From: a virus
IMG/VR virus record: IMGVR_UViG_3300047560_000289
Span: 1 to 21,265 of that record
DNA: 21,265 bases
Direction: 5' to 3' (one strand)
The notes beneath the pieces were generated by a model. That model had not been told where the DNA came from. It made no database searches and worked only from the letters and a program-made list of their open reading frames with translations. A program made the translations under genes and the position numbers. Positions 2,850 to 19,847 of this stretch are shown one piece after another; positions within the stretch are counted from its first letter, which is position 1, and each line of letters opens with the position of its first letter.

Positions 2850-2941
2850 TTGGTTTGTTTTTAGTTTTGTGTTTAGGTGCTGCCATAGCAATATTGGTGG
2901 GGTGGATATTTGTGCAAATACTGTTATGGGCTGAGGAATAA
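2846..2941 (+). CDS. 31-residue membrane peptide
   Basis: This ORF opens with GTG (2846) overlapping the stop of the preceding gene (GTGA), with a GGGGTG ribosome site about five bases upstream. The product (MIGLFLVLCLGAAIAILVGW, then IFVQILLWAEE) is one uninterrupted hydrophobic helix with two acidic residues at the end, so it should lie in the inner membrane. It is the last gene of the + arm and runs 18 bases into the 3' end of the endolysin gene on the other strand. It may be a lysis, exclusion or inhibitory peptide, but this is not shown. It is the second such peptide in the arm (see 1128-1229). Confidence 0.55.
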   Translation: MIGLFLVLCLGAAIAILVGWIFVQILLWAEE

Positions 2942-3403
2942 AGCGCGTTCGTCTTTGCGCCTATTTGCTAACCCTTTGAGGATTTTTCCGCCAGCCATGC
3001 AATATTTAAGCAATTCATCAGCAGCGCCCGTTTTATCGCCGCGCAAAACCTTTTGACGGAAGGTGCTGCGCTGTAATGTGCCCAAACCAACATTAAAAGC
3101 AAAACTGACGCAAGCATCAAATTCACTTTGGGTAAGTGCAACGGGTAAAAATTGTTCCACGCCGCGTTCAAAGCGTTGTAAATCTCGCTTAAGTATTGCA
3201 TCCACTTCTTCCATACTAAAAATGCGGAAATCTTCTATCCGCAGCGCAAACCCATCACGCTGGTCTATAGGCAATTTACCTTGCTCTGGGTACAGCACAT
3301 GACCCACACCCACTGTCCATAGCTTTGCGGGGCATTTATACGGCTTTTGTCGCACCCCTTCATGGTGTTTAATCATAGCTATGGCTTTGGGGCTGACGTT
3401 CAT
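2924..3403 (-). CDS. GH24 endolysin (lysozyme)
   Basis: This is a 159-residue enzyme that cuts the glycan backbone of peptidoglycan. The GH24 catalytic set is complete and correctly spaced: E15 in HHEG, C24, and T30 in LWTVGVGH, i.e. E-x8-C-x5-T, the arrangement of P21-type and other cysteine-form lysozymes. The C-terminal half contains SFAFNVG (about residues 95-101) and GGKILKGLANRR, also characteristic. There is no obvious N-terminal signal-anchor, so export would depend on a holin, and a holin lies directly upstream with an ATGA overlap (3400-3403). The length is normal for the family. It is the last gene of the - arm and runs tail to tail into the + arm. Confidence 0.95.
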   Translation of the reverse strand: MNVSPKAIAMIKHHEGVRQKPYKCPAKLWTVGVGHVLYPEQGKLPIDQRDGFALRIEDFRIFSMEEVDAILKRDLQRFERGVEQFLPVALTQSEFDACVSFAFNVGLGTLQRSTFRQKVLRGDKTGAADELLKYCMAGGKILKGLANRRKDERALFLSP

Positions 3404-3915
3404 TTGCCGAATGCTCTGCCACCAAAGTGAAACGCAATAATGCTTGCAAACAATGCTTGTGTATCATCATCCCAAAGTTGATTTGACATATCGTCAAAAG
3501 CAACATTGGTATTAAAGCCATGCCAAGCCAGCGCAGCATCTAAACCAACCAGCAAAAAGAAAAACCCGTAAGTAATTACCGGGCGCACGCTTGCACGCAA
3601 ATCTTTCATCCATTGGCTTGTCCCTTCATTTAGCGCGGTGTCATGCGCGTACAAGGCTTGCATCTCAGCCACTTGTGCGCCAATCATTGCTTGCTTTTCT
3701 TGCGATTTGGTTTCTACTCCCAATTGTTCGGATTTAATATGTTCCACGCGTTCTTGCGCTTCATAGCCCAATTTACGCATTTCCAATTCACGCTGCACTT
3801 GGATTTGCGCCATTTCTAATTCATGTTTTTTATCGTTTCTGTCTTGGAAAAAATCCAGCAGTTTGGGCAAACCGCCCATTAAAAAACTAATTAGAGTTGA
3901 TAACAGGGTTAACAT
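3400..3915 (-). CDS. Holin (3-TM family, gene-transfer-agent type)
   Basis: The start used is the ATG at 3915 (171 residues), preceded by AAAGGA with seven bases of spacing; the longer frame back to GTG 3984 overlaps the gene before and lacks a ribosome site. The protein has a short hydrophobic N-terminus (MLTLLSTLISFLMGGLPKLL), a long charged coiled segment (about residues 25-105), then RPVITYGFFFLLVGLDAALAW and FASIIAFHFGGRAFGK, which match the C-terminal spans of GTA_holin_3TM proteins. Such holins make the inner-membrane lesion that releases the endolysin. It overlaps the endolysin gene by four bases. An unusual point is the very long charged middle segment rich in E, K and Q. Confidence 0.85.
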   Translation of the reverse strand: MLTLLSTLISFLMGGLPKLLDFFQDRNDKKHELEMAQIQVQRELEMRKLGYEAQERVEHIKSEQLGVETKSQEKQAMIGAQVAEMQALYAHDTALNEGTSQWMKDLRASVRPVITYGFFFLLVGLDAALAWHGFNTNVAFDDMSNQLWDDDTQALFASIIAFHFGGRAFGK

Positions 3916-4204
3916 TTTTTTTCCTTTCGTCTTCCAGTTGTTTGCGTAATTTTTCCACTTTTTCCATTTGCTGTTTTGCTTCACGCTTAACAGTTAATGT
4001 GTCCATGTACAGCAATGAAATTAACGGCAGCATCAGCGCAAATACAATTACAAACAATATCAGGGTAAATACGTATCCAGTCGGCCCCGATGGTGTAGGC
4101 TTATCAACGTCATCAGAAAAACTAGGTAAGCTGCCACGAAAACCACCAGCACTGTTTCCAGCAGTCTGTCCAAGATTTTGTTTTTTAATCTTTGTCGCTG
4201 CCAT
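3887..4204 (-). CDS. One-span membrane protein with coiled coil, overlapping the upstream gene
   Basis: This is a 105-residue protein: a polar, Gly/Ser/Pro-rich N-terminus (about residues 1-43), one membrane span (YVFTLILFVIVFALMLPLIS), then a charged coiled coil (KREAKQQMEKVEKLRKQLEDERKK). Its 5' half lies in another frame of the 189-residue membrane gene (145 bases shared), and its 3' end overlaps the holin start by 29 bases. The ribosome site is weak (ACGGGT), so translation may be coupled to the gene above. The span plus periplasmic coiled coil resembles an inner-membrane spanin, but the N-terminal tail is long for that family and no partner lipoprotein is seen. Function unknown. Confidence 0.6.
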   Translation of the reverse strand: MAATKIKKQNLGQTAGNSAGGFRGSLPSFSDDVDKPTPSGPTGYVFTLILFVIVFALMLPLISLLYMDTLTVKREAKQQMEKVEKLRKQLEDERKKNVNPVINSN

Positions 4205-4629
4205 GCTTTTACCCGTTGCGCGTGTAATTCCCTTGCGTTGTTGGCTGCTTTTTCTTCAAGCAATCGCTGATATTCATCAACGATTTCATGCCACAAATCT
4301 GGCATCCCCATTTCCCACCGCACCATGCGTTCAAGGTCGGCATAGAATTGTTTAGTTTGCCGCAAATAAATTACGTTGTCTATCGCTTGGGTTGCCAAAT
4401 CGTCTTTGATGCCCTTGCGTTGGTTTTCTTGTCTTTGTATTTCGGATTTTTCGTGGCTTGCTTCTAACTCAGCGTGCCCTTTGAAAAACTTAGAAAGTGC
4501 GCCGCCCACTTCCCCGGTAATTTTGGTTAAATCGTTGCCAGTTTTTTTTAAATCTTGGTAAACGCTTATGCAGCCTTTAATGCCTTCATAAGCACTTTTG
4601 CACAACGCAAACGCGGTAATGGGGTCCAC
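4060..4629 (-). CDS. Membrane-anchored coiled protein of the lysis cassette
   Basis: This is a 189-residue protein starting at GTG 4629, two bases after the preceding stop. Residues 1-150 are helical and highly charged (for example SKFFKGHAELEASHEKSEIQ and KAANNARELHAQRVKAWQRQ). Residues about 158-178 form a single hydrophobic span (LETVLVVFVAAYLVFLMTLISL) close to the C-terminus, as in tail-anchored proteins. No enzyme motif is visible. It shares 145 bases with the next gene in another frame, a rare amount of dual coding that suggests a functional link between the two membrane proteins. The place in the lysis block suggests a role in lysis or its timing, unproven. Confidence 0.65.
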   Translation of the reverse strand: MDPITAFALCKSAYEGIKGCISVYQDLKKTGNDLTKITGEVGGALSKFFKGHAELEASHEKSEIQRQENQRKGIKDDLATQAIDNVIYLRQTKQFYADLERMVRWEMGMPDLWHEIVDEYQRLLEEKAANNARELHAQRVKAWQRQRLKNKILDRLLETVLVVFVAAYLVFLMTLISLHHRGRLDTYLP

Positions 4630-4630
4630 C

Positions 4631-4855
4631 TCACGGTTTGTCCTGTTTGTTGTCCAGCTTGTTAAAAATTTGTTTCAAAATGTCTTTGATTTCCGCAATA
4701 TCGTTTCGGTAATCGTCTTTGGCAACATATACATGGGGCATATCTTGCATTTTTTCTTCAAGCCTAGAAATTTTGCTTGTCAAAGAATTGATAACGTATA
4801 TTGCTAGGAAACCAGCAATGCTAACAACTGCGTTAAATAATTGCTGGTTGTCCAT
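4631..4855 (-). CDS. XhlA-like membrane/coiled-coil protein
   Basis: This is a 74-residue protein with an N-terminal membrane helix (about residues 8-26, NAVVSIAGFLAIYVINSL), followed by a heptad-patterned coiled coil (KISRLEEKMQDM and DIAEIKDILKQIFNKLDNK). This layout matches small phage membrane proteins of the XhlA/hemolysin-like group that help holin and endolysin in other phages. A GGAG ribosome site lies about seven bases before the ATG. It follows a 49-residue ORF by two bases and is followed by the 189-residue membrane gene. The membrane helix and coiled coil are clear; assignment to the XhlA family is by pattern only. Confidence 0.65.
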   Translation of the reverse strand: MDNQQLFNAVVSIAGFLAIYVINSLTSKISRLEEKMQDMPHVYVAKDDYRNDIAEIKDILKQIFNKLDNKQDKP

Positions 4856-5392: not shown

Positions 5393-6292
5393 TCAAATTT
5401 CCTTTAAAAGTTCGGGTACACGCTTCCATTCATGCTGTCTCAGGGCTATTACTGAGTCATACCAAACAGCATTCTTCCATCTCCAGCAGACATAATCATC
5501 TTCTGGCAACAGCACAATACATTTCACGCCCAAAGCGCCAGCCATGTGCGCCGTTCCAGTGTCCACAGTGACAACTGCCTTCATGGATTTCATGTGTTCC
5601 GCTGTCTTCTGCCAATCTTTTTTCCAGCCGTTTTCGGGCAACTTAATGAACGGGCCATCATCTTCTGGGTTTAGGCTATATGCGTTCTTGCCCACAAGCT
5701 CCATCATGCGCTCTGGAGTTGTGCTTTTAATCCCGTGCAGGTAACGCCTTGATGCACCCCAGTTCACGCCGACAAAAGGCAGTATCTGGCTTGGCTTGGC
5801 ATCCAGATACCCTTCGCTTCCAATGACCTTGTTTTGGGTTATTGGGAACAGCGCACGAACAGGGGCAGGACAGTGCAGAGCAATGAATGGAAGGCTCATC
5901 GACCCAATCCAATAATCACACTCTTGAGACACACCCTCTTTTTCGTTGTTGGTGATGTAATCAATACAAGGGATTTGAGCGTACAAATACGCCAACGGCA
6001 GGGTGGACAGCACCACCAGCTTGCTTGCCCCCAAAACCTTCAGGATGGGCAGAAAACGCATGAATTGAATGCAGTCCCCGTAGCCCATTTCCATTTGAAC
6101 AACGATTGACTTGCCTTGAAGCGGCTCACCCCTCCAAACCGGGGACGGCGTGTACTTCTCAAAAGGCTCATCAAGCGTTGCAATCGCATCTGGATGCCAG
6201 CGGTATTCAAACAAACGAAACCCCGTAGCGTAGTCACCTGAATGAAGGTGAGCATACGCTTGGTGATACAGATCAACTGGGGTGTGGTTCAT
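5393..6292 (-). CDS. TPR plus heptosyltransferase-like glycosyltransferase
   Basis: This is a 299-residue protein. Residues 3-34 fit one TPR unit (DLYHQAYAHLHSGDYATGFR). Residues 69-82 (MGYGDCIQFMRFLP) match the 'GxGDxIQFxRYLP' motif of TPR-linked GT9/heptosyltransferase-like proteins; residues 174-181 (VGVNWGAS) and 243-255 (VDTGTAHMAGALG) form the nucleotide-sugar cleft; residues 266-280 (DYVCWRWKNAVWYDS) match the usual 'dWRWxxxxxxxPWYpS' end. It should transfer a sugar from a nucleotide donor. The ATG has no ribosome site and overlaps the stop of a 13-codon ORF. Its place beside the fibre suggests it glycosylates virion protein or alters host surface glycan; this is inference. Confidence 0.82.
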   Translation of the reverse strand: MNHTPVDLYHQAYAHLHSGDYATGFRLFEYRWHPDAIATLDEPFEKYTPSPVWRGEPLQGKSIVVQMEMGYGDCIQFMRFLPILKVLGASKLVVLSTLPLAYLYAQIPCIDYITNNEKEGVSQECDYWIGSMSLPFIALHCPAPVRALFPITQNKVIGSEGYLDAKPSQILPFVGVNWGASRRYLHGIKSTTPERMMELVGKNAYSLNPEDDGPFIKLPENGWKKDWQKTAEHMKSMKAVVTVDTGTAHMAGALGVKCIVLLPEDDYVCWRWKNAVWYDSVIALRQHEWKRVPELLKEI

Positions 6293-6330
6293 TTTTTAAC
6301 TGCGCTGATGTTCCAGACTATGGTACTCAT
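6289..6330 (-). CDS. 13-residue bridging ORF ahead of the glycosyltransferase
   Basis: This very short ORF (product MSTIVWNISAVKK) has a strong AAGGAG ribosome site seven bases before its ATG. The ATG overlaps the fibre stop (ATGA, 6330-6327) and its own stop overlaps the glycosyltransferase ATG (ATGA, 6292-6289). The glycosyltransferase has no ribosome site of its own, so this ORF could carry ribosomes to it by coupled translation. The peptide loosely resembles the start of the DUF7936-like protein (MANTYTWAIAYMDT), so it could be the remnant of a duplicate whose rest was lost when the glycosyltransferase arrived. The junctions and ribosome site are seen; both explanations are inference. Confidence 0.5.
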   Translation of the reverse strand: MSTIVWNISAVKK

Positions 6331-8879
6331 GATGATGCTCCTTCCAAAGCGGTGATACGGGCGGTGAGTTGGGTGATGATGGCTTGTTGTTCTTTGATTA
6401 AACCATGCAATTCATCAACCCCCGCCGCAATTAAAGGAATAGTCCAGTTGTAATTGACGCCCCACGCTTCTGGGTCTGCTTTTTCAACGGCTTGAGGAAA
6501 ATTAATATCTAAATCTTGAGCAATAAAAAATGCTACGTTTCTGCTTGGGTCTGCTTTGTAATTACCTGTTACTTTTCTCAAACCAGCAATTTTTGAAAGC
6601 GCTCCCGTGATTGGTGAAAGGTTTTCTTTTAATCGCTCATCTGATGATGTTGTAAAAGTTGTAGCGCCAGTTGCGACATAGCCAGCAATAGTTCCCGAGT
6701 TGTTTCGTATACAAACGTCATACGAACTTCCTTTACCTTGAAGAACAGCCCCAAGACTAGAATACCCAAAAACAATAGCATCCCCGTTTGTAGGTGTTGA
6801 CCCGCCCGAACCACTCACCCATTTTGTATAGCCGCCTCCAGTAATCAGCAAGTTACCGCTTGCATCAAGGGTCATTGCTGTCGTGGCGTTGCTTAGTACC
6901 CATGCGTGTGAGAGAGCATCGTACTGAGCATTGGCAAAGTAGCTTGCGCCGCCATCAACACTGCGTACAGCTTTGACGGTGGTGCTTGTTCCAGACGATG
7001 CTGAACGGGCCGTGTAAGCAGATGTGGCATTTGATAAAGCCTCAATTCGTCCGCCGCCTGTGTTTGTCGTAGCCCCCACCAGCAAGTTACCGCTGGAGTC
7101 GATACGGGCGCGTTCTGAGCCATCCGTGCTAAACACCATGTAATTGCCGTTATGGCTGTAATAAATCTGTCCACGATATGCATCTGCGCCCGATGTTCCA
7201 TCAGCAAAGTGAATGGAACCATCGTTGCTAATGCCAGAAACAATTGTTAAGCCGTTTGAACCAGAAGTCCCAATAACTAGATTGTCGGCAACTCCGTTGT
7301 ACGAACTTGGCGATGTGTTTGCCACCCCCAAGTTACCGCTGGAGTCGATCAAGACATCGTAACCACCACTGCGTGACAACCAAAGAGGGTCGTTTGCCAA
7401 TGCACCAGCAATGCCAATGGTTGCAGTAGAAGAACTGCGTTGCAGTAAAAGGTGCTTTGAATTTGCGCCGGATACCGAATCGTTTAGGCGAAGCGTTGAA
7501 CCACCTACCGTACCCGGCCCAGTTACATCCAGCTTATAAGCAGGCGAACTTGTCCCAATACCCAAGTTGCCTGAAACATCCAAATCCATTTGTCGAGTGC
7601 CGCCATTCCACCAAGAATGTGCGTTCCCGCCGCTTGAATATGTCGCTTCATATTTGACGTAAGCAGTTTCTTGCGTAAGACGCAATCGCTTATTTGTCCC
7701 AGTGGATGTTTCATAAATCTGAGCGCCAACACCAGCAGAACCTTGAATGTCAAGTTTATATCCGGGCGAACTTGTCCCAATACCCACATTGCCAAGCACA
7801 GCAAGCCCGTTGTTGCCAACGCTTGTCAGTGTTGAATAACCTATGCCTACTGCGCCTACACCGCCTGTGGCAGAGGCAATACGCATATATTCGGACGAAG
7901 CATCGTAATTTGTCCATGCCAATGTTTCTGCCCGTGATTGCAAAATGCCGCTTGAGTTGGTAAGAATCAAACCTGCTTTTGTTGCGCCACCAGAGTTTGA
8001 AAATGCCAAATAACTGTATGCACCTGAAGATGTTAATGAAGCACCCGCAACAGAAGCAGAAACAGTTAAAGCACTCCCATCAAAAGTCAGCGCACTACCC
8101 GTAGCCAACGTACTTGAGTTTGAGGCATACAGCACACCATTTGCGGTAAATGAGGTGAGGCCTGTGCCGCCATTTGCTGTGGGCAGTGTGCCGCTAACGT
8201 GCGTGGTTAGGCCAATCTTGCCCCAACTTGGCGCAGTTGATACACCACCAGAAATAAGCGCATTGCCCGTTGCAACGTCAGCAAGTTTGGACAATGCCGT
8301 TGTGCTTGACGCATAAAGCAAATCACCCACTGCGTAACTAGATTGTCCTGTGCCGCCGTTTGCTGTTGCAAGCGTGCCAGCCAATGTAATTGTGCCGCTG
8401 CCCGTAATTGGGCCACCGCTTGTGGTTAGCCCCGTAGTGCCACCAGAAAAGTCAACTGATGTAACAGTACCGCCACCATCTGCAACCCATTCCAAGGCGG
8501 TTGCGCCGCTGTTTAAGCCCAAGCGTTTGCTGCCATTACCCGTGTAGCTAGGCAACAAATTTTGAATAGCTGATGCCGCTGTGGTTGCGTTTGTACCGCC
8601 CAAATTTATGGGCACTGTGGTTAAGCTAATGGTGTTGCCAGTAATGTCAATTGGGCTTGTACCCGCATAAGCCGTACTGGTTAATGGGCCAACGTCTTGC
8701 TGTGTTCCATTGGTGTAATAAATTCGCAAATATTGCAGCGTGCTAATTGTGACCGGAACAATGCTGCTAATGCCGTTACCCGCTACGCCACGATCAATCG
8801 TGATGGTCTGCGCTGCAACAGGTGTTAATTGGACAGTGATATTGTTTGCATCTGTGACAGATACAGTAATGTTAGCCAT
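6327..8879 (-). CDS. Tail fibre with S74 self-cleaving chaperone domain
   Basis: This is an 850-residue fibre. The N-terminus (about 1-110) is beta-rich, with GNGISSIVP and TNGTQQDVGPL linkers seen near fibre attachment regions. The middle (about 110-740) is Gly/Ser/Thr-rich with repeating units such as ATANGGTG and GNLGIGTSSPAYKLDV, expected to trimerise as a fibrous shaft. The C-terminal 105 residues are a peptidase S74 domain starting at SDERLKEN, with the catalytic serine (746) and lysine (751) in the usual S-x4-K spacing; this domain folds the trimer and cuts itself off. The last helix (EQQAIITQLTARITALEG) is a trimeric coiled coil. It probably binds the host surface. A good GGGGA ribosome site precedes the ATG. 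Confidence 0.9.
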   Translation of the reverse strand: MANITVSVTDANNITVQLTPVAAQTITIDRGVAGNGISSIVPVTISTLQYLRIYYTNGTQQDVGPLTSTAYAGTSPIDITGNTISLTTVPINLGGTNATTAASAIQNLLPSYTGNGSKRLGLNSGATALEWVADGGGTVTSVDFSGGTTGLTTSGGPITGSGTITLAGTLATANGGTGQSSYAVGDLLYASSTTALSKLADVATGNALISGGVSTAPSWGKIGLTTHVSGTLPTANGGTGLTSFTANGVLYASNSSTLATGSALTFDGSALTVSASVAGASLTSSGAYSYLAFSNSGGATKAGLILTNSSGILQSRAETLAWTNYDASSEYMRIASATGGVGAVGIGYSTLTSVGNNGLAVLGNVGIGTSSPGYKLDIQGSAGVGAQIYETSTGTNKRLRLTQETAYVKYEATYSSGGNAHSWWNGGTRQMDLDVSGNLGIGTSSPAYKLDVTGPGTVGGSTLRLNDSVSGANSKHLLLQRSSSTATIGIAGALANDPLWLSRSGGYDVLIDSSGNLGVANTSPSSYNGVADNLVIGTSGSNGLTIVSGISNDGSIHFADGTSGADAYRGQIYYSHNGNYMVFSTDGSERARIDSSGNLLVGATTNTGGGRIEALSNATSAYTARSASSGTSTTVKAVRSVDGGASYFANAQYDALSHAWVLSNATTAMTLDASGNLLITGGGYTKWVSGSGGSTPTNGDAIVFGYSSLGAVLQGKGSSYDVCIRNNSGTIAGYVATGATTFTTSSDERLKENLSPITGALSKIAGLRKVTGNYKADPSRNVAFFIAQDLDINFPQAVEKADPEAWGVNYNWTIPLIAAGVDELHGLIKEQQAIITQLTARITALEGASS
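7084..7349 (-). repeat. Pair of identical 20-base direct repeats in the fibre gene
   Basis: A 20-base stretch (AAGTTACCGCTGGAGTCGAT on the + strand) occurs at 7084-7103 and again at 7330-7349, with a diverged third copy near 6849. Each encodes the 'IDSSGNL' element of the fibre shaft. The identity over 20 bases suggests recent duplication or gene conversion and allows loss or gain of about 246 bases in frame (82 codons). Confidence 0.7.
7543..7786 (-). repeat. Second pair of direct repeats in the fibre gene
   Basis: A 22-base stretch beginning GGCGAACTTGTCCC is identical at 7543-7564 and 7765-7786. It encodes the 'GIGTSSP' element of the shaft. The spacing is 222 bases, a multiple of three, so recombination between copies would keep the frame and change the fibre length by 74 residues. 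Confidence 0.7.
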
Positions 8880-9382: not shown

Positions 9383-9859
9383 TTACCCTGCCTTCCTGAT
9401 GAAACCCCAACCCTTTTGTGGCGGGAGAAATTTGCCGTTCACTGTTCTACCTAAACATTTTCTTCTAATTGTGCTTACATATACATTGTGTGCCGCTGCG
9501 GCTTTTGTTGAAGAATCAAATATGCCTAAAGGCGTAATGTAAGAACCAATGTAATGCGGCGCTTCCGCACCAAATTTACCGTAATTAGGGTTTTCTGTGC
9601 CAACCATTACATTATTTGACGCACCGCCAGCGGATATATTCCAACCAATTCGCCTATGCGGTCTAAGTTTAGCTTCTATTTCGTAACAATAATCAATAGT
9701 TGATTTAACTAACAACTTAACAATTACTTTGTCCCAAATAGTTTTTAAGCGATGTTTGTGACTACGCAAGCGTGCATCAATGTTAGATGCTGCGCCAATG
9801 TAACCTTGCGTTAGAACGTCTTTGTGTTCTGGCAAGTGAAGCCAATAAACATAAGCCAT
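9383..9859 (-). CDS. GIY-YIG homing endonuclease
   Basis: This is a 158-residue nuclease. Residues 3-6 (YVYW) and 19-22 (GYIG) are the GIY and YIG elements; R30 or R32, E62 (in IEAKLRP) and N74 (in GWNISAGG) fill the catalytic positions of the fold. The C-terminal half (about 85-137) has NPNYGK, a NUMOD3-like element, and FDSSTKAAAAHNVYVSTIRRKCLGR, a NUMOD1/IENR1-like helix-turn-helix for DNA contact. Such enzymes cut a phage allele lacking the gene and spread by repair. It lies between the tail-tip gene and a small tail gene, oriented with them. A small hairpin partly covers its ribosome site. No intron core was recognised, so it is treated as free-standing. Confidence 0.88.
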   Translation of the reverse strand: MAYVYWLHLPEHKDVLTQGYIGAASNIDARLRSHKHRLKTIWDKVIVKLLVKSTIDYCYEIEAKLRPHRRIGWNISAGGASNNVMVGTENPNYGKFGAEAPHYIGSYITPLGIFDSSTKAAAAHNVYVSTIRRKCLGRTVNGKFLPPQKGWGFIRKAG

Positions 9860-14956: not shown

Positions 14957-15600
14957 GTAATGTCCTCTCTAAAAACAAACGCGCTGTCCCATTGCACAAA
15001 CGCGCCATTGGTCATTGGGTTAAGCGTATATGTTGGGCAGCTTTCAGCAAGCAAATAAAACGTGCAATTTGCCCCCACAGCAGTCAATGTGCCCGTGCTA
15101 GGCGTGCCAATAACGGGTCTGTGTAAGGTTACGCTCACTGTGCTGCCAGAACCGCGCAAAACTTGTGTGGTGACTTTGTACGGATAAATTCCCAACTGCA
15201 AAAAATCACCCGGTTCAAAAATTATTGTGGATGATGTTACTGCTGGCAAATTGCCCACAGTAATAATTGTGCTGTTAGCTGGTGGCACGCTTGCCAATGT
15301 AAGCGCGTTAACTTGCGGAGTGGTCAAATCGCCTTGATATGCCGTAAACCATGACAAATTGGCGTTATTGAAAGTTATTGTTTCTGGTATTTGCCTGTCT
15401 TTATTGTCAATCGCTTGAATAATGTCACGCGCTTGCGGGTAGTATAAATAATTGTGTGGCATCACTGTAAACACCCAAGGCACAGCAGTTAGATATTGCG
15501 CCACACGCACTTGACCGCCACGGCTAACTTGTTGCCCAACCATGCGCCGATTGTTCACCGACATATTTTGCTGGATGTTAAATATCGTTTGAAAAGACAT
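14953..15600 (-). CDS. Distal tail-like structural protein
   Basis: This is a 215-residue protein. Its ATG overlaps the tape-measure stop by one base (TAATG), which suggests coupled translation. The first 60 residues include GGQVRVAQYLTAVPWVFTV; the second half has EPGDFLQLGIYPYKVTTQVL and VTLHRPVIGTP, a beta-sandwich pattern, and NPMTNGAFVQWDSAFVFRED near the end. It follows the tape measure directly, where distal tail (Dit) proteins lie in siphoviruses. The function is assigned by position and fold pattern, not by a clear family motif. Confidence 0.68.
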   Translation of the reverse strand: MSFQTIFNIQQNMSVNNRRMVGQQVSRGGQVRVAQYLTAVPWVFTVMPHNYLYYPQARDIIQAIDNKDRQIPETITFNNANLSWFTAYQGDLTTPQVNALTLASVPPANSTIITVGNLPAVTSSTIIFEPGDFLQLGIYPYKVTTQVLRGSGSTVSVTLHRPVIGTPSTGTLTAVGANCTFYLLAESCPTYTLNPMTNGAFVQWDSAFVFREDIT

Positions 15601-17627
15601 TACGCCCTCCCTAAATTACCGGAAATGGCTTTTTCGCCATACCTATTTGCGGCCCAAATTGCATTAGCAGAACCATAAATCCTATCTTCAAAGGATTTTG
15701 TATCAATGGCTTGTATGTAATTGTTGGTGACGTTAGTAACGCTGCCTAACCCATCTAGCTGGTTATTGGGAATGATTGTTCCTGCGGTGCGTGGCACAAA
15801 CAATTCTGGCCCACGCTCACCAACAATGCTTGCTTTGCCTACTGGCGGGTTTCCACCATCAGCAAAAAATGCAGCATCAACCATAGAAATAGGGCCAGAA
15901 ACGTCACCGCCACTGCCACCGAACAAACTACCAATCAAACCGCCTAAACCGCCACCACCGCCACCAAACAATGATTTTGTAAACGACATTGCTTGTGCAC
16001 GCAATTGGATATAAATTAAATCTTGAACAATGCTTTGCGCCAAATCATTAAAACTTAATTTGCCAGTTCTAACAAAATTGCGTAATGCGTTGTCCATGTT
16101 GCTAACAACTGCTTCAAATGCGCGTTGCCCATCTTCCATTGCTGTGGGCATATCGCGGATAAATTCTTTCATGCTTTTGGCAAAGCCTTCGCCATACGTG
16201 CCTTCACGCATACTCTTTGTCGCAGCGTTGCGCCGTTCAGCTAAACGAATTGCTTTTTCTGCCTGTTGATTTTCGCGCTCAATCATCACCGCTTTTGTTT
16301 CGGCATCAATTTTGTCGCTTTCTTGTATTTGTTTAACTACGTCAGCACGCTTGTATTCAATTTGCAAAAGTTGTTGTGCTAAATCGTAATCTTCTTTCCG
16401 CATACTTGTCGCTTTTAAAGACAAGTTAAACAATTCCTGTTCGCGTTCAAGTTGTGTATCAGTTGCGCGGATGCGTTCTAAAAATGTTTTGTATTCTTTA
16501 TTTGTTTCATTTTCTATTTCAGCAGCCAAACGCGCCAATTCTTGCTCTTGCGCCACTTGTGCTGCAAATGCTTTTGCTTGTTCAGCCCAATACTTTTTTA
16601 ATTCTGGGTCTTCGCCCGGCTTAACTTTGCGTTTTACGCCCGGTGCTGCTTTAGGCGCATCCCAACTATCACCGCCAAAATCGGTGAATGGTGCGCCCAT
16701 TACTTTTTGTTGGAAAAATTCTAAACGCGCTTTTTCACGTTCGCGCATTTGGTCATAAACTTCATTAGCTTTTGTTGCCGCTGTAATTCCTTGTGTTATT
16801 AAAAGTTTTGCGTTTTCAATTGTGTGTGCAATTTCATCAGAAATACCTTTAAATACAAAAGCTACATCAGAACCAAGTACTGCAACAGTTTGAAATACTG
16901 TTTTAATCACATCGCCAAATAAATTGCTTTCACCGCGTATTTCTTTAATGTATTCCAATGTTGTTTTCAATGTTGGGCCAATTGCTGTGGCAAAAACTAA
17001 AGCGGTATCACGCCCCGCTTGTTGCAGCATATCCCACGCATCGGCAGCGTCTTGCACTGCTTTGGCTTGTTCTTGGGTTACACCTTTGCCTTCTTTAAAC
17101 GCCGCATTTAGGCCAACAAAATCCACGCCTTTGGCTGCTTTGCCAAATATCTCCATCGCCTTGGCATTGCGTGTTAGCGGGTCTTCAATGGCAGCAATGC
17201 CAGCAACTGCTTTTTGAAACAAATCGTCCGTAGACATTTTGCTCAAATCGCCCAAAGTAATGCCAGCTTGTTGGAATGCCTTTTGTGCAGTGAATGAGCC
17301 TTCAGCTGCGGTGTCTACAAATTTGGTAAACCCGGCTAACAATTTGCCAGCATCTTCGGCGTGCCCACCAGCTTGACCCAATGCGTTAGACAAACGCAAA
17401 ACGCTATCAATGGCAACGTCATTGGCTTTGGCTACGTCAGCAATGCCATCAGCGTATTCCAACGCTTTATATGTTGCGGCTGCTAACGCTACAGCACCAA
17501 CTTTTCCATAAATTTCAACTTGCTTGCTAAATTGTTCAAGTTTCTTTTGTGCGTTTTCAATGCCTTTGGTGAATTCGGCACTATCCAAGCCAAGTAAAAC
17601 GCCAAGTCTACCAATCATGTTAGCCAT
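15600..17627 (-). CDS. Tape measure protein
   Basis: This is a 675-residue protein with GAGGTG just upstream of the ATG. The start (MANMIGRLGVLLGLDSAEFTKGIENAQKKLEQF) and MEIFGKAAKGVDF (about residue 160) are typical of phage tape measures. The middle is long helical coiled coil (AQEQELARLAAEIENETN and ERENQQAEKAIRLAERRN). Near the C-terminus are a glycine-rich patch (FGGGGGGLGGLIGSLFGG) and GERGPELFVPRTAGTIIP, the usual end motif. Tape measures set tail length at about 0.15 nm per residue, so this one predicts a tail of roughly 100 nm. It follows the T chaperone frame with an 8-base overlap. Confidence 0.95.
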   Translation of the reverse strand: MANMIGRLGVLLGLDSAEFTKGIENAQKKLEQFSKQVEIYGKVGAVALAAATYKALEYADGIADVAKANDVAIDSVLRLSNALGQAGGHAEDAGKLLAGFTKFVDTAAEGSFTAQKAFQQAGITLGDLSKMSTDDLFQKAVAGIAAIEDPLTRNAKAMEIFGKAAKGVDFVGLNAAFKEGKGVTQEQAKAVQDAADAWDMLQQAGRDTALVFATAIGPTLKTTLEYIKEIRGESNLFGDVIKTVFQTVAVLGSDVAFVFKGISDEIAHTIENAKLLITQGITAATKANEVYDQMREREKARLEFFQQKVMGAPFTDFGGDSWDAPKAAPGVKRKVKPGEDPELKKYWAEQAKAFAAQVAQEQELARLAAEIENETNKEYKTFLERIRATDTQLEREQELFNLSLKATSMRKEDYDLAQQLLQIEYKRADVVKQIQESDKIDAETKAVMIERENQQAEKAIRLAERRNAATKSMREGTYGEGFAKSMKEFIRDMPTAMEDGQRAFEAVVSNMDNALRNFVRTGKLSFNDLAQSIVQDLIYIQLRAQAMSFTKSLFGGGGGGLGGLIGSLFGGSGGDVSGPISMVDAAFFADGGNPPVGKASIVGERGPELFVPRTAGTIIPNNQLDGLGSVTNVTNNYIQAIDTKSFEDRIYGSANAIWAANRYGEKAISGNLGRA

Positions 17628-17973
17628 GCTTCACCTCAAATCTGTCTTTGCTGAAACCCGGCGCTTGCACCATAAACGCTAACAAATTATCGCTTACGGC
17701 TTGTTTTTGATATTCTTCTGGCAATGGCGGGAATAGGTAATCATACGCAAGCCCCATAATGTTGGCTAGTTTATAAGGCGGTGCATTTGCAGGGCGAATA
17801 TAATTAAACACGCCATTTGTTAACGTGCTTAATACGTTCAACAAACCATGATTGCCAATGATGCCATCAGCGTACATAGTCTGTATTTGGCGCATCGTTA
17901 TATCGTCTAACCCGGCAATTGATTCATGTGTATGCCCGTTGAAGATCATGGCGCATTCCACTTGCGTCTTCAA
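17620..17973 (-). CDS. Tail assembly chaperone T domain, made by -1 frameshift
   Basis: This frame is the second part of a G-T fusion. It is open back to the slippery site at 17985-17991; the TTG at 17973 is only the first start-like codon and has no ribosome site, and the first ATG is at 17949. After the slip it adds 121 residues to G, giving a 281-residue G-T protein. The sequence (HTHESIAGLDDITMRQIQTM, then YADGIIGNHGLLNVLSTLTN and PPLPEEYQKQAVSDNLLAF) is small and mostly helical like lambda T. It should recruit the tail tube to the tape measure, which follows at once. It is unlikely to be made alone. Confidence 0.82.
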   Translation of the reverse strand: MKTQVECAMIFNGHTHESIAGLDDITMRQIQTMYADGIIGNHGLLNVLSTLTNGVFNYIRPANAPPYKLANIMGLAYDYLFPPLPEEYQKQAVSDNLLAFMVQAPGFSKDRFEVKHG

Positions 17974-17991
17974 CGAGCTTATTAGTTTCCC
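17935..17991 (-). promoter_or_regulatory. Programmed -1 ribosomal frameshift signal between G and T
   Basis: The heptamer G GGA AAC (17991-17985) fits X XXY YYZ in the G frame, two codons before the G stop (TAA 17984-17982). Seven bases later an 11-bp stem begins (17977-17967 paired with 17945-17935, one G-U pair), with a smaller 4-bp helix inside its loop (17966-17963 with 17955-17952). A -1 slip joins G directly to the open T frame. Heptamer, spacer, stem, frame and gene identity all agree. Confidence 0.88.
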
Positions 17992-18464
17992 CGCGTTTCC
18001 TTATACGATGGGCTAATTGCTTCGCCAATTTTTTCAATCAATGCCATTTGCACTGAAAATGGGAATTCGGCTTCAATGTCTGCGTAAGTAATATCATCCA
18101 GCGTTGCGTTGGAATCTTCTGGAATTAACAATTTAATAAATTCAGTAATTCGCATCTGCGTGGTGATTTTGTTTTTGGCAGCTTCACGCAAAGACCGCCC
18201 ATCCACCACAATGTCATTGTCCAAAAAAGTTACATTGCCATCGGGCGTGTCTTTAAACGCTAACAATGGGGCTGCAATTTCTTGATACGCGGCCTCTATA
18301 GCCTGTTCATCTGGGTTTTGAATGCGCTGGTAAATTTCCTGTGTTTCAACAACCAAAGGAATTTTTACTTTAAAAATGTGCCCGCCTAATTCAAAAGTAC
18401 GGGTCAACAATTGTCTGCGCTGTGCTTGGTATTTTTCACCAAATGCTGATGCTAGTTTTGTCAT
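17982..18464 (-). CDS. Tail assembly chaperone G
   Basis: This is a 160-residue protein starting at an ATGA overlap with the HK97 gp10-like gene. It is acidic and helical (EIYQRIQNPDEQAIEAAYQE and DVAYADIEAEF-type segments) with a beta-rich front (ELGGHIFKVKIPLVVETQEI), as in gpG-like chaperones. It sits between the tail tube and tape measure, the usual place. Its last codons (CGG GGA AAC TAA) contain the slip site, so most ribosomes make G and a minority make G-T. The family sequence is poorly conserved in phages; the call rests on position and the frameshift. Confidence 0.84.
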   Translation of the reverse strand: MTKLASAFGEKYQAQRRQLLTRTFELGGHIFKVKIPLVVETQEIYQRIQNPDEQAIEAAYQEIAAPLLAFKDTPDGNVTFLDNDIVVDGRSLREAAKNKITTQMRITEFIKLLIPEDSNATLDDITYADIEAEFPFSVQMALIEKIGEAISPSYKETRGN

Positions 18465-18937
18465 TTCTGTTTTGCCTTAAATTGTTCTATCCTGCGTGCC
18501 AATATGCCACTCAATAAATTGACTGTGCTTTGCGCCATGCTTTCCAATGCTGGTCGCAAATAAGGGTGCGCTTGATTGCGTGCGGAACCGAATTCCTGTG
18601 CAATGGCGCGCGCATCTGATTCAATGCCCATCTTAGCTAATTTCTTGCCTGATGCGGTTGTTACCGCTGCAATCACAGTGTCTGTTTCGGTAACGTATTT
18701 AGAACGTCTGTCGCGTCTTGTTGGTCGGCGTGCTTCAATGATTAAGCTGCGTTCCAGTGCGCCAGTGTCTTTAGGTGAATTTGCCTTTGCCATTGCAAGC
18801 ACAGGCTTCATGGCTTCGCGCACCGCTGGCACTAAGATTTTGCTTTGTGCCTGTTTATCGCCTATTTCTTTTTGCAGTTCATAAAGCACATCTGCAATTG
18901 GGCCAATGCCTTCCAACTTAATGGTAACACGGCCCAT
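18461..18937 (-). CDS. HK97 gp10-like tail/neck protein
   Basis: This is a 158-residue protein with a GGGAG site eight bases before ATG 18937. MAKANSPKDTGALERSL and IAQEFGSARNQAHPYLRPAL are the two diagnostic stretches of the HK97-gp10_like family (PF04883). These proteins help complete the tail or neck. In many siphoviruses the gene comes before the tail terminator and tube, but here it lies after the tube and before chaperone G, so it may be a minor tail component in this phage. The family call is firm; the exact place in the virion is not. Confidence 0.88.
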   Translation of the reverse strand: MGRVTIKLEGIGPIADVLYELQKEIGDKQAQSKILVPAVREAMKPVLAMAKANSPKDTGALERSLIIEARRPTRRDRRSKYVTETDTVIAAVTTASGKKLAKMGIESDARAIAQEFGSARNQAHPYLRPALESMAQSTVNLLSGILARRIEQFKAKQK

Positions 18938-19352: not shown

Positions 19353-19847
19353 TCAAGTGCTTGCTGACCAGCCGTATTGATTGCCACGCGGGTGAATGCT
19401 AAAAATTACTTTAGCTTCTGCGCCGGGTGCGCTGTCAATTTGCCATTGGCTAACGCGTCCGTTAAAAGCGTAATTAACAATGCCAGTGCCATCGGTTGCG
19501 CTGATAACAAAAGTGCGGTCAATCGTGCCGTTATAAGCATCGCCACGCAACAACAGCAAAACGGTATCGCTAGGATTCCAAGCCGCAGTAATGGTCATGC
19601 TGGTGGGTGCGCTTTGCACAGGGATTTTGTCCGATTGACGCGAACCAGCAACGCCGAACGATGCCACAGCATCATCTTGACCAAATGCGGGAATAGCTTC
19701 AACAGGAACCAAATTGCCGCTAATAGCAATTGCGCTAACGCTTGCATAAGTGGACAAGTTAGCAACAGTCAACGGGGTTGGCGTTGCACTGGGTTGTGCA
19801 TACAGTGTTGCGCTAAAACCGGGTAGGATTTTAGTTGGGAGTGCCAT
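19353..19847 (-). CDS. Major tail tube protein
   Basis: This is a 164-residue protein with GAAGGA eight bases before the ATG. It is beta-rich with the small residues and loops of siphovirus tube proteins: MALPTKILPGFSATLYAQPS, VEAIPAFGQDDAVASFG, then SMTITAAWNPSDTVLLLL and RTFVISATDGTGIVNYAFNG, ending WQIDSAPGAEAKVIFSIHP. It lies after the tail terminator and before the chaperones, the usual place. It should polymerise as the tube; late genes of this kind are strongly expressed, in line with the good ribosome site. Confidence 0.83.
   Translation of the reverse strand: MALPTKILPGFSATLYAQPSATPTPLTVANLSTYASVSAIAISGNLVPVEAIPAFGQDDAVASFGVAGSRQSDKIPVQSAPTSMTITAAWNPSDTVLLLLRGDAYNGTIDRTFVISATDGTGIVNYAFNGRVSQWQIDSAPGAEAKVIFSIHPRGNQYGWSAST

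Follow-up and report, generated by a model that had tools for sequence, protein, structure and literature searches.

A covarying hairpin follows a predicted -1 frameshift site joining two putative tail assembly chaperone genes in a group of aquatic phages

Layout of the G/T junction

The window, i.e., the whole stretch of DNA that was analyzed, is a 21,265-base IMG/VR virus record in which the G/T junction is read on the minus strand. Gene G (17982..18464), an open reading frame (ORF) with homologues at 223 loci and an AF2 model, codes for a putative tail assembly chaperone of 160 residues. Its last codons are CGG GGA AAC TAA, with the terminus G_GGA_AAC_TAA. As expected of a bacterial programmed -1 signal, in which either an X_XXY_YYZ heptamer or a Z_ZZN tetramer would serve, the heptamer G_GGA_AAC (17985..17991) lies in the zero frame 5′ of the stop, in the register that two-tRNA slippage requires, and the stop codon TAA (17982..17984) is flush with the slip codon. 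The T frame (17620..17985), which would be reached only by a -1 shift, is an ORF of 121 codons that begins with CTA at position 17985, stops at 17622-17620 and overlaps the start of the tape-measure gene by 8 nt. Past the slip site, the -1 frame reads LISSLKTQVECAMIFNGHT..., and the predicted G-T fusion has 281 residues. A first-pass annotation of this DNA had reported a GGGAAAC heptamer in the correct frame (here at 17991-17985, with TAA next), a G protein of 160 residues, a -1 frame open for 121 codons and a fusion of 281 residues, all of which our reading of the ORFs bears out.

The slip site is separated from a strong stem-loop by a 6-nt spacer, TAATAA (17979..17984), which includes the stop codon and which is ungapped in the alignment of relatives. 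The sequence GCTCGTTGAAGA (17978-17967), the 5′ arm, pairs with TCTTCAACGGGC (17945-17934), the 3′ arm, to form a stem of 12 bp with one U-G pair. Between the arms lies a variable loop of 21 nt (17946..17966) that encodes T residues and holds a T-frame ATG at 17949-17947. The minimum free energy of the hairpin is -22.3 kcal/mol (z = -4.0), and none of 200 shuffled sequences folded as well; for the 60 nt 3′ of the slip site, the z score relative to shuffles is -4.8. A downstream structure approximately 5 to 9 nt after the slip site is another characteristic of -1 signals, and here the covarying 12-bp stem, a putative stimulator, is found at 6 nt. The first-pass annotation had recognized the stem-loop after the heptamer but described it as an 11-bp stem preceded by a 7-base spacer and ending at 17935. 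The outer G-C pair 17978/17934 had been overlooked; the stem reaches 17934, and the spacer is one base shorter. An inner helix, also part of that description, is indeed predicted in the window, but the inner pairing varies among relatives and is absent from the RNAalifold consensus, i.e., it is not a conserved part of the element. A search of the window against Rfam gave no match, and no U-run was found 3′ of the stem, unlike at a terminator.

The gene order is of the lambda type, with tail tube, G, T and tape measure in succession, and three small genes separate the tube gene from G. The genes for a tail-tube-like (major tail) protein (19353-19847; phrog_158, E = 2.6e-4), a neck-type protein (18461-18937; PF04883) and the tape-measure protein, the next one downstream of T (15600..17627; PF09718, E = 7.6e-14; phrog_339, E = 1.6e-19), are all on the minus strand. 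T also fits the lambda type in that it lacks a separate start and would be read through a -1 shift out of G, as judged from the frame, the coding pattern and the missing ATGs described below. Sequence searches of Pfam, PHROGs and PDB with G and T returned nothing significant, and no protein sequence similarity to lambda G/T was found in the Pfam and PHROG searches; one G member matched the tail assembly chaperone family phrog_344 with a nonsignificant E value of 0.09. When the AF2 model of G (pLDDT 87) was compared with solved structures in VIA, 2ob9, a tail assembly chaperone of HK97, came out on top (Z 6.0, rmsd 4.5, 94 aligned residues), in a tie with 5ir0 (Z 5.9) and at a level at which similarity can arise by chance, and the weak BFVD matches of the model include several tail assembly chaperones. 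The model of T (pLDDT 73, pTM 0.37) is too poor for conclusions about its fold. From the gene order, the frameshift layout and the modest fold match to the HK97 chaperone, we infer that G and T are tail assembly chaperones, the first two of these observations carrying the assignment.

Several other genes of the window were noted. Among the tail genes, a 158-residue ORF (9383-9859, minus strand) begins with a sequence that looks like a GIY-YIG nuclease by eye (YIGAASNIDARLRSHK) and has no Pfam match at an E value of 0.01. A tail-fiber-like ORF with a Peptidase_S74 chaperone domain (6327-8879) adjoins an ORF (5393-6292, minus strand) that weakly resembles glycosyltransferase family 9 (PF01075, E = 1.5e-4), in a match that falls slightly short of the cut-off. 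A phage lysozyme is encoded at 2924-3403 (minus strand; PF00959, E = 1.1e-35), and beside its gene the small ORFs at 3400-4855 have a membrane-anchored look, again by eye.

Covariation of the stem among relatives

Relatives of T, of which IMG/VR has several hundred, were collected from it in separate searches, which found 199, 551 and 85 stretches and from each of which up to 80 were taken. As the loci from separate searches overlap, distinct sequences were counted where needed, giving 96 distinct 79-nt junctions. To locate the junctions (n = 237), we used a motif of the T protein in which the ATG is included, and five loci devoid of that ATG were read by hand. Only one relative is cultured, Methylophilaceae phage P19250A, which was found among reference phages; two others are metagenome-assembled (MAG) contigs from bacterial genomes. 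One relative (L037, about 1-961) has an in-frame stop codon in G some 31 codons before its end, which probably reflects a sequencing error or a broken gene, and this locus was set aside.

The 79-nt junctions align in all relatives without a gap, from 5′ of the slip site to past the stem, and 11 or 12 of the 12 stem pairs are formed in each of the 96 distinct junctions. The paired changes in the stem of related phages, which the first-pass annotation had proposed as a check, were found and are mostly synonymous. At pair 22/64, C-G, A-U, U-A and G-C all occur among these junctions. Pair 25/61 is G-C in 61 of them, A-U in 34 and G-U in one, and pair 28/58 is G-C in 50, A-U in 45 and A-C in one. 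By parsimony on a tree built from the T sequence outside the stem, these three pairs underwent at least 3, 12 and 8 double changes, respectively, i.e., at least 23 independent events.

Because related sequences can mimic covariation, we scored every pair of variable third-position columns of T, 6,001 in all, for changes on the same branch. Ranks 1 to 4 are taken by the four variable pairs of the stem, with co-change scores of 0.38 to 1.0, compared with 0.33 for the best pair outside the stem. Similarly, a mean of 7.7 pairs formed under codon-preserving randomization, against 11.8 observed. RNAalifold applied to 41 sequences returned the same 12 stem pairs and no pairing within the loop. We saw no conserved inner helix or pseudoknot: the loop pairs are unlike between relatives, and no other third-position pair co-changes as often as the stem pairs. 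These comparative data indicate that the stem is an RNA structure under selection. The G stop is likewise constant: TAA, TGA or TAG directly follows the slip codon at the identical place in all 237 junctions found with the motif and in the five read by hand. Evolution has thus preserved the hairpin itself more strictly than it has the slip sequence.

Slip sites and the upstream purine tract

The slip sites differ between two clades. In the clade of the window, the site is GGGAAAC or, in rare cases, AAAAAAC, and the stop next to it is TAA or TGA. The slip codons are under synonymous selection, with GGA as the Gly codon of the heptamer in 94 of 94 cases, versus 3.5% elsewhere in G, and AAC as the second codon in 96 of 96. 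Sites of the P19250A clade are GTCAAAG, CTCAAAG, TTCAAAG or GGAAAAG, and in one case GTCAAAA, with TAG or TAA as the stop. Only the A_AAG part is slippery there, before the same stem as in the clade of the window; the P-site codon would re-pair poorly in the -1 frame, making two-tRNA slippage unlikely in that clade. In about 45 of 55 sequences, another A_AAG (ATA_AAG) precedes this one by two codons, and the Lys codon of the earlier copy is AAG in 46 of 46, though AAA makes up 91% of the Lys codons elsewhere in G. A survey of all motifs in E. coli found GGGAAAC and AAAAAAC to be of low efficiency and A_AAG to be the best tetramer, yet one that gives hardly any shift unless a stimulator is present (Sharma et al. 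2014, PMC4066793). There is precedent for A_AAG as a slip site in IS1222 (PMC5009743).

A Shine-Dalgarno-like purine tract, ARGGAR (AAGGAA in the window, 17997..18002), lies 5 nt 5′ of the heptamer and is invariant in the clade of the window, whereas it is mostly missing from the P19250A clade. Its Lys/Arg codon has undergone no third-base change in 90 sequences, versus an average of 16 for 49 other G codons, none of which has zero. The codon switched between Lys and Arg six times, always at the second base, with Lys always encoded by AAG and Arg always by AGG. Such conservation suggests that ARGGAR may be an upstream stimulator of the Shine-Dalgarno type in the clade of the window. The Shine-Dalgarno spacing in dnaX is about 10 nt, longer than that of ARGGAR. 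With its short spacing of 5 to 6 nt, a dnaX-like role for the tract is uncertain; it lies at or just under the range of 6 to 17 nt adopted in PMC4066793. Another G codon, at position -10 (18012-18014, minus strand), encodes Ser with AGC in 92 of 96 sequences, versus 13% of the Ser codons elsewhere in G, and shows two third-position changes only.

Predicted frameshifting and related systems

Based on the layout of the junction and its comparison among relatives, we consider it very probable that a -1 frameshift at the flush-stop slip site, with the hairpin as stimulator, yields G-T. Most ribosomes would read GGA AAC and halt at the adjoining TAA, releasing G (160 aa). In a minority of cases the 12-bp hairpin, positioned at the mRNA entry, would hold the ribosome while it slips by -1 from G_GGA_AAC to GGG AAA, and the slipped ribosomes would continue through T; as in lambda, the resulting G-T (281 aa) would be made at a low ratio. 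Throughout the phage group, the hairpin would thereby serve as a constant stimulator, whereas the slip sequence 5′ of it has changed between clades, and ARGGAR just 5′ may add to the shift in the clade of the window. In E. coli, the species from which the efficiencies come, rather than in Methylophilaceae, the slip motifs of the group are of low efficiency or dependent on a stimulator, and all of its slip sites would therefore benefit from one. The stem with the flush stop is the sole feature shared by all the slip sites, and on the preferred reading it would be the stem that sets the efficiency; it probably makes the shift efficient and offsets the slip codon AAC, which is weak in E. coli. 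The hairpin may also point to a set ratio of G to G-T, as the first-pass annotation suggested. The layout and its conservation, the paired changes in the stem, the protein-coding evolution of the T frame 5′ of any start codon and the change of slip motif are observations, from which we infer that slippage occurs, how efficient it is, in what ratio G and G-T are made and that the proteins act as chaperones.

We regard the signal as a well-supported variation on the mechanism known for lambda G/G-T, one for which the comparative evidence is unusually good. The two have in common the order of tail tube, G, T and tape measure, the -1 direction and a longer fusion product, and lambda likewise has a purine heptamer at the end of gene G. 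However, lambda has GGGAAAG, with an efficient A-site codon, its stop ends 18 nt past the heptamer, and a strong adjoining stem is lacking (z = +1.0), whereas the phage group of the window has GGGAAAC or A_AAG, a flush stop and a covarying 12-bp stem. The first-pass annotation was right in calling the stem stronger than that of lambda (z = -4.8 versus +1.0). In chaperone pairs of the lambda type, both products are expected to associate with the tape measure or tail tube and to come off before the virion is complete. In the lambda model, the molar ratio is 30:1, the G part binds the tape measure and the T part the tail shaft protein (PMC5009743). GGGAAAC is also the slip site in g-t pairs of haloarchaeal viruses (PMC5009743); HCTV-1, -2 and -5, which have a G-T frameshift, infect archaea. 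The signals of IS3/IS911-type elements and IS1222 similarly pair a weak heptamer or A_AAG with a stimulator further downstream, either a stem or a pseudoknot, and IS911 has an upstream stimulator as well (PMC4066793, PMC5009743). Those signals are found in transposase genes of unrelated sequence, and the putative stimulator in the group of the window is a plain hairpin. Other tail chaperone pairs joined by a -1 frameshift, HK97 gp13/gp14, P2 E/E′ and mycobacteriophage D29 gp24/gp25, have their stop 19 to 21 nt past the slip site, unlike the flush stop found here. No notable fold adjoins the slip site in HK97 (z = -0.9) or P2 (z = -0.15), but a strong hairpin (z = -3.0) follows that of D29 (L256, slip site near 2573). 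A strong stem is thus neither general among tail chaperone sites nor unique to the group of the window.

Alternatively, T might be a separate protein whose translation begins at the hairpin ATG, through re-initiation or translational coupling past the G stop, with the hairpin gating that ATG. This codon is common among the relatives, sits 32 nt past the G stop and is the annotated T start in phage P19250A (KX815270.1 9904-10715; L089 5001-5812), in which G and T are hypothetical proteins APC43898.1 and APC43899.1 with no frameshift annotated. Nevertheless, none of the 96 distinct junctions has a Shine-Dalgarno-like sequence 5′ of it, and Leu (CTA or CTT) replaces it in five relatives (L236, L241, L248, L250 and L251), all of which retain the flush stop and all 12 stem pairs. 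This agrees with the earlier claim that T has no usable start. Furthermore, between the G stop and the ATG the T frame is open in 96 of 96 junctions and the other frames are not, and in the loop it has undergone 36, 30 and 117 changes at codon positions 1, 2 and 3, third-position changes being three- to fourfold more common. This pattern shows that the stretch from the G stop to the first ATG is constrained as protein-coding sequence in the T frame, and together with the synonymous selection on the slip codons it makes a separate start of T highly improbable. We consider it just as hard to believe that the stem was kept for mRNA processing or stability, or for transcription pausing, while the slip site acts alone as in lambda. 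Covariation by itself is silent on function, and lambda, HK97 and P2 do function without a strong adjoining stem. Yet the stem lies exactly 6 nt from every slip site, a spacing in the range of stimulators, with no insertion or deletion among the relatives; it persists where the heptamer shrinks to A_AAG, and the missing U-run sets it apart from a terminator. Transcriptional slippage was ruled out, the runs being of 3 or 4 bases only, or up to 6 or 7 A in the rare AAAAAAC sites.

A refinement of the preferred reading, frameshifting stimulated by the hairpin, concerns the stop codon. The flush stop could occupy the A site during slippage in the P19250A clade, and perhaps throughout the group, slow termination in front of the stem giving the lone P-site tRNA time to slip. 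The stop is flush in 237 of 237 junctions, whereas it ends 18 to 21 nt further on in lambda, HK97 and P2, and only a single tRNA can re-pair in the P19250A clade. Against such a role, the bases of the stop also contribute to T codons that specify conserved Leu/Val and Ile/Val residues, which could have fixed its position; each of TAA, TGA and TAG is in use, and two-tRNA slippage is enough for GGGAAAC. We regard an active stop as possible but doubtful. Equally tentative is the idea that the stable recoding unit is the stop codon plus the hairpin rather than the heptamer. The ribosome would be caught in the act of termination at the flush stop before the stem, which would let the motif drift between a two-tRNA heptamer and, at the end, a one-tRNA A_AAG without a change in the ratio of G to G-T.

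For phage P19250A, these observations correct the annotation, in which G and T are listed apart and T begins inside the hairpin. For the widespread and uncultured group of aquatic phages to which the window belongs, they provide a well-documented covarying, putative stimulator of a tail chaperone frameshift. As the slip motif changes while the stem and the stop remain constant, the group represents a natural series in which control of the G to G-T ratio can be tested.
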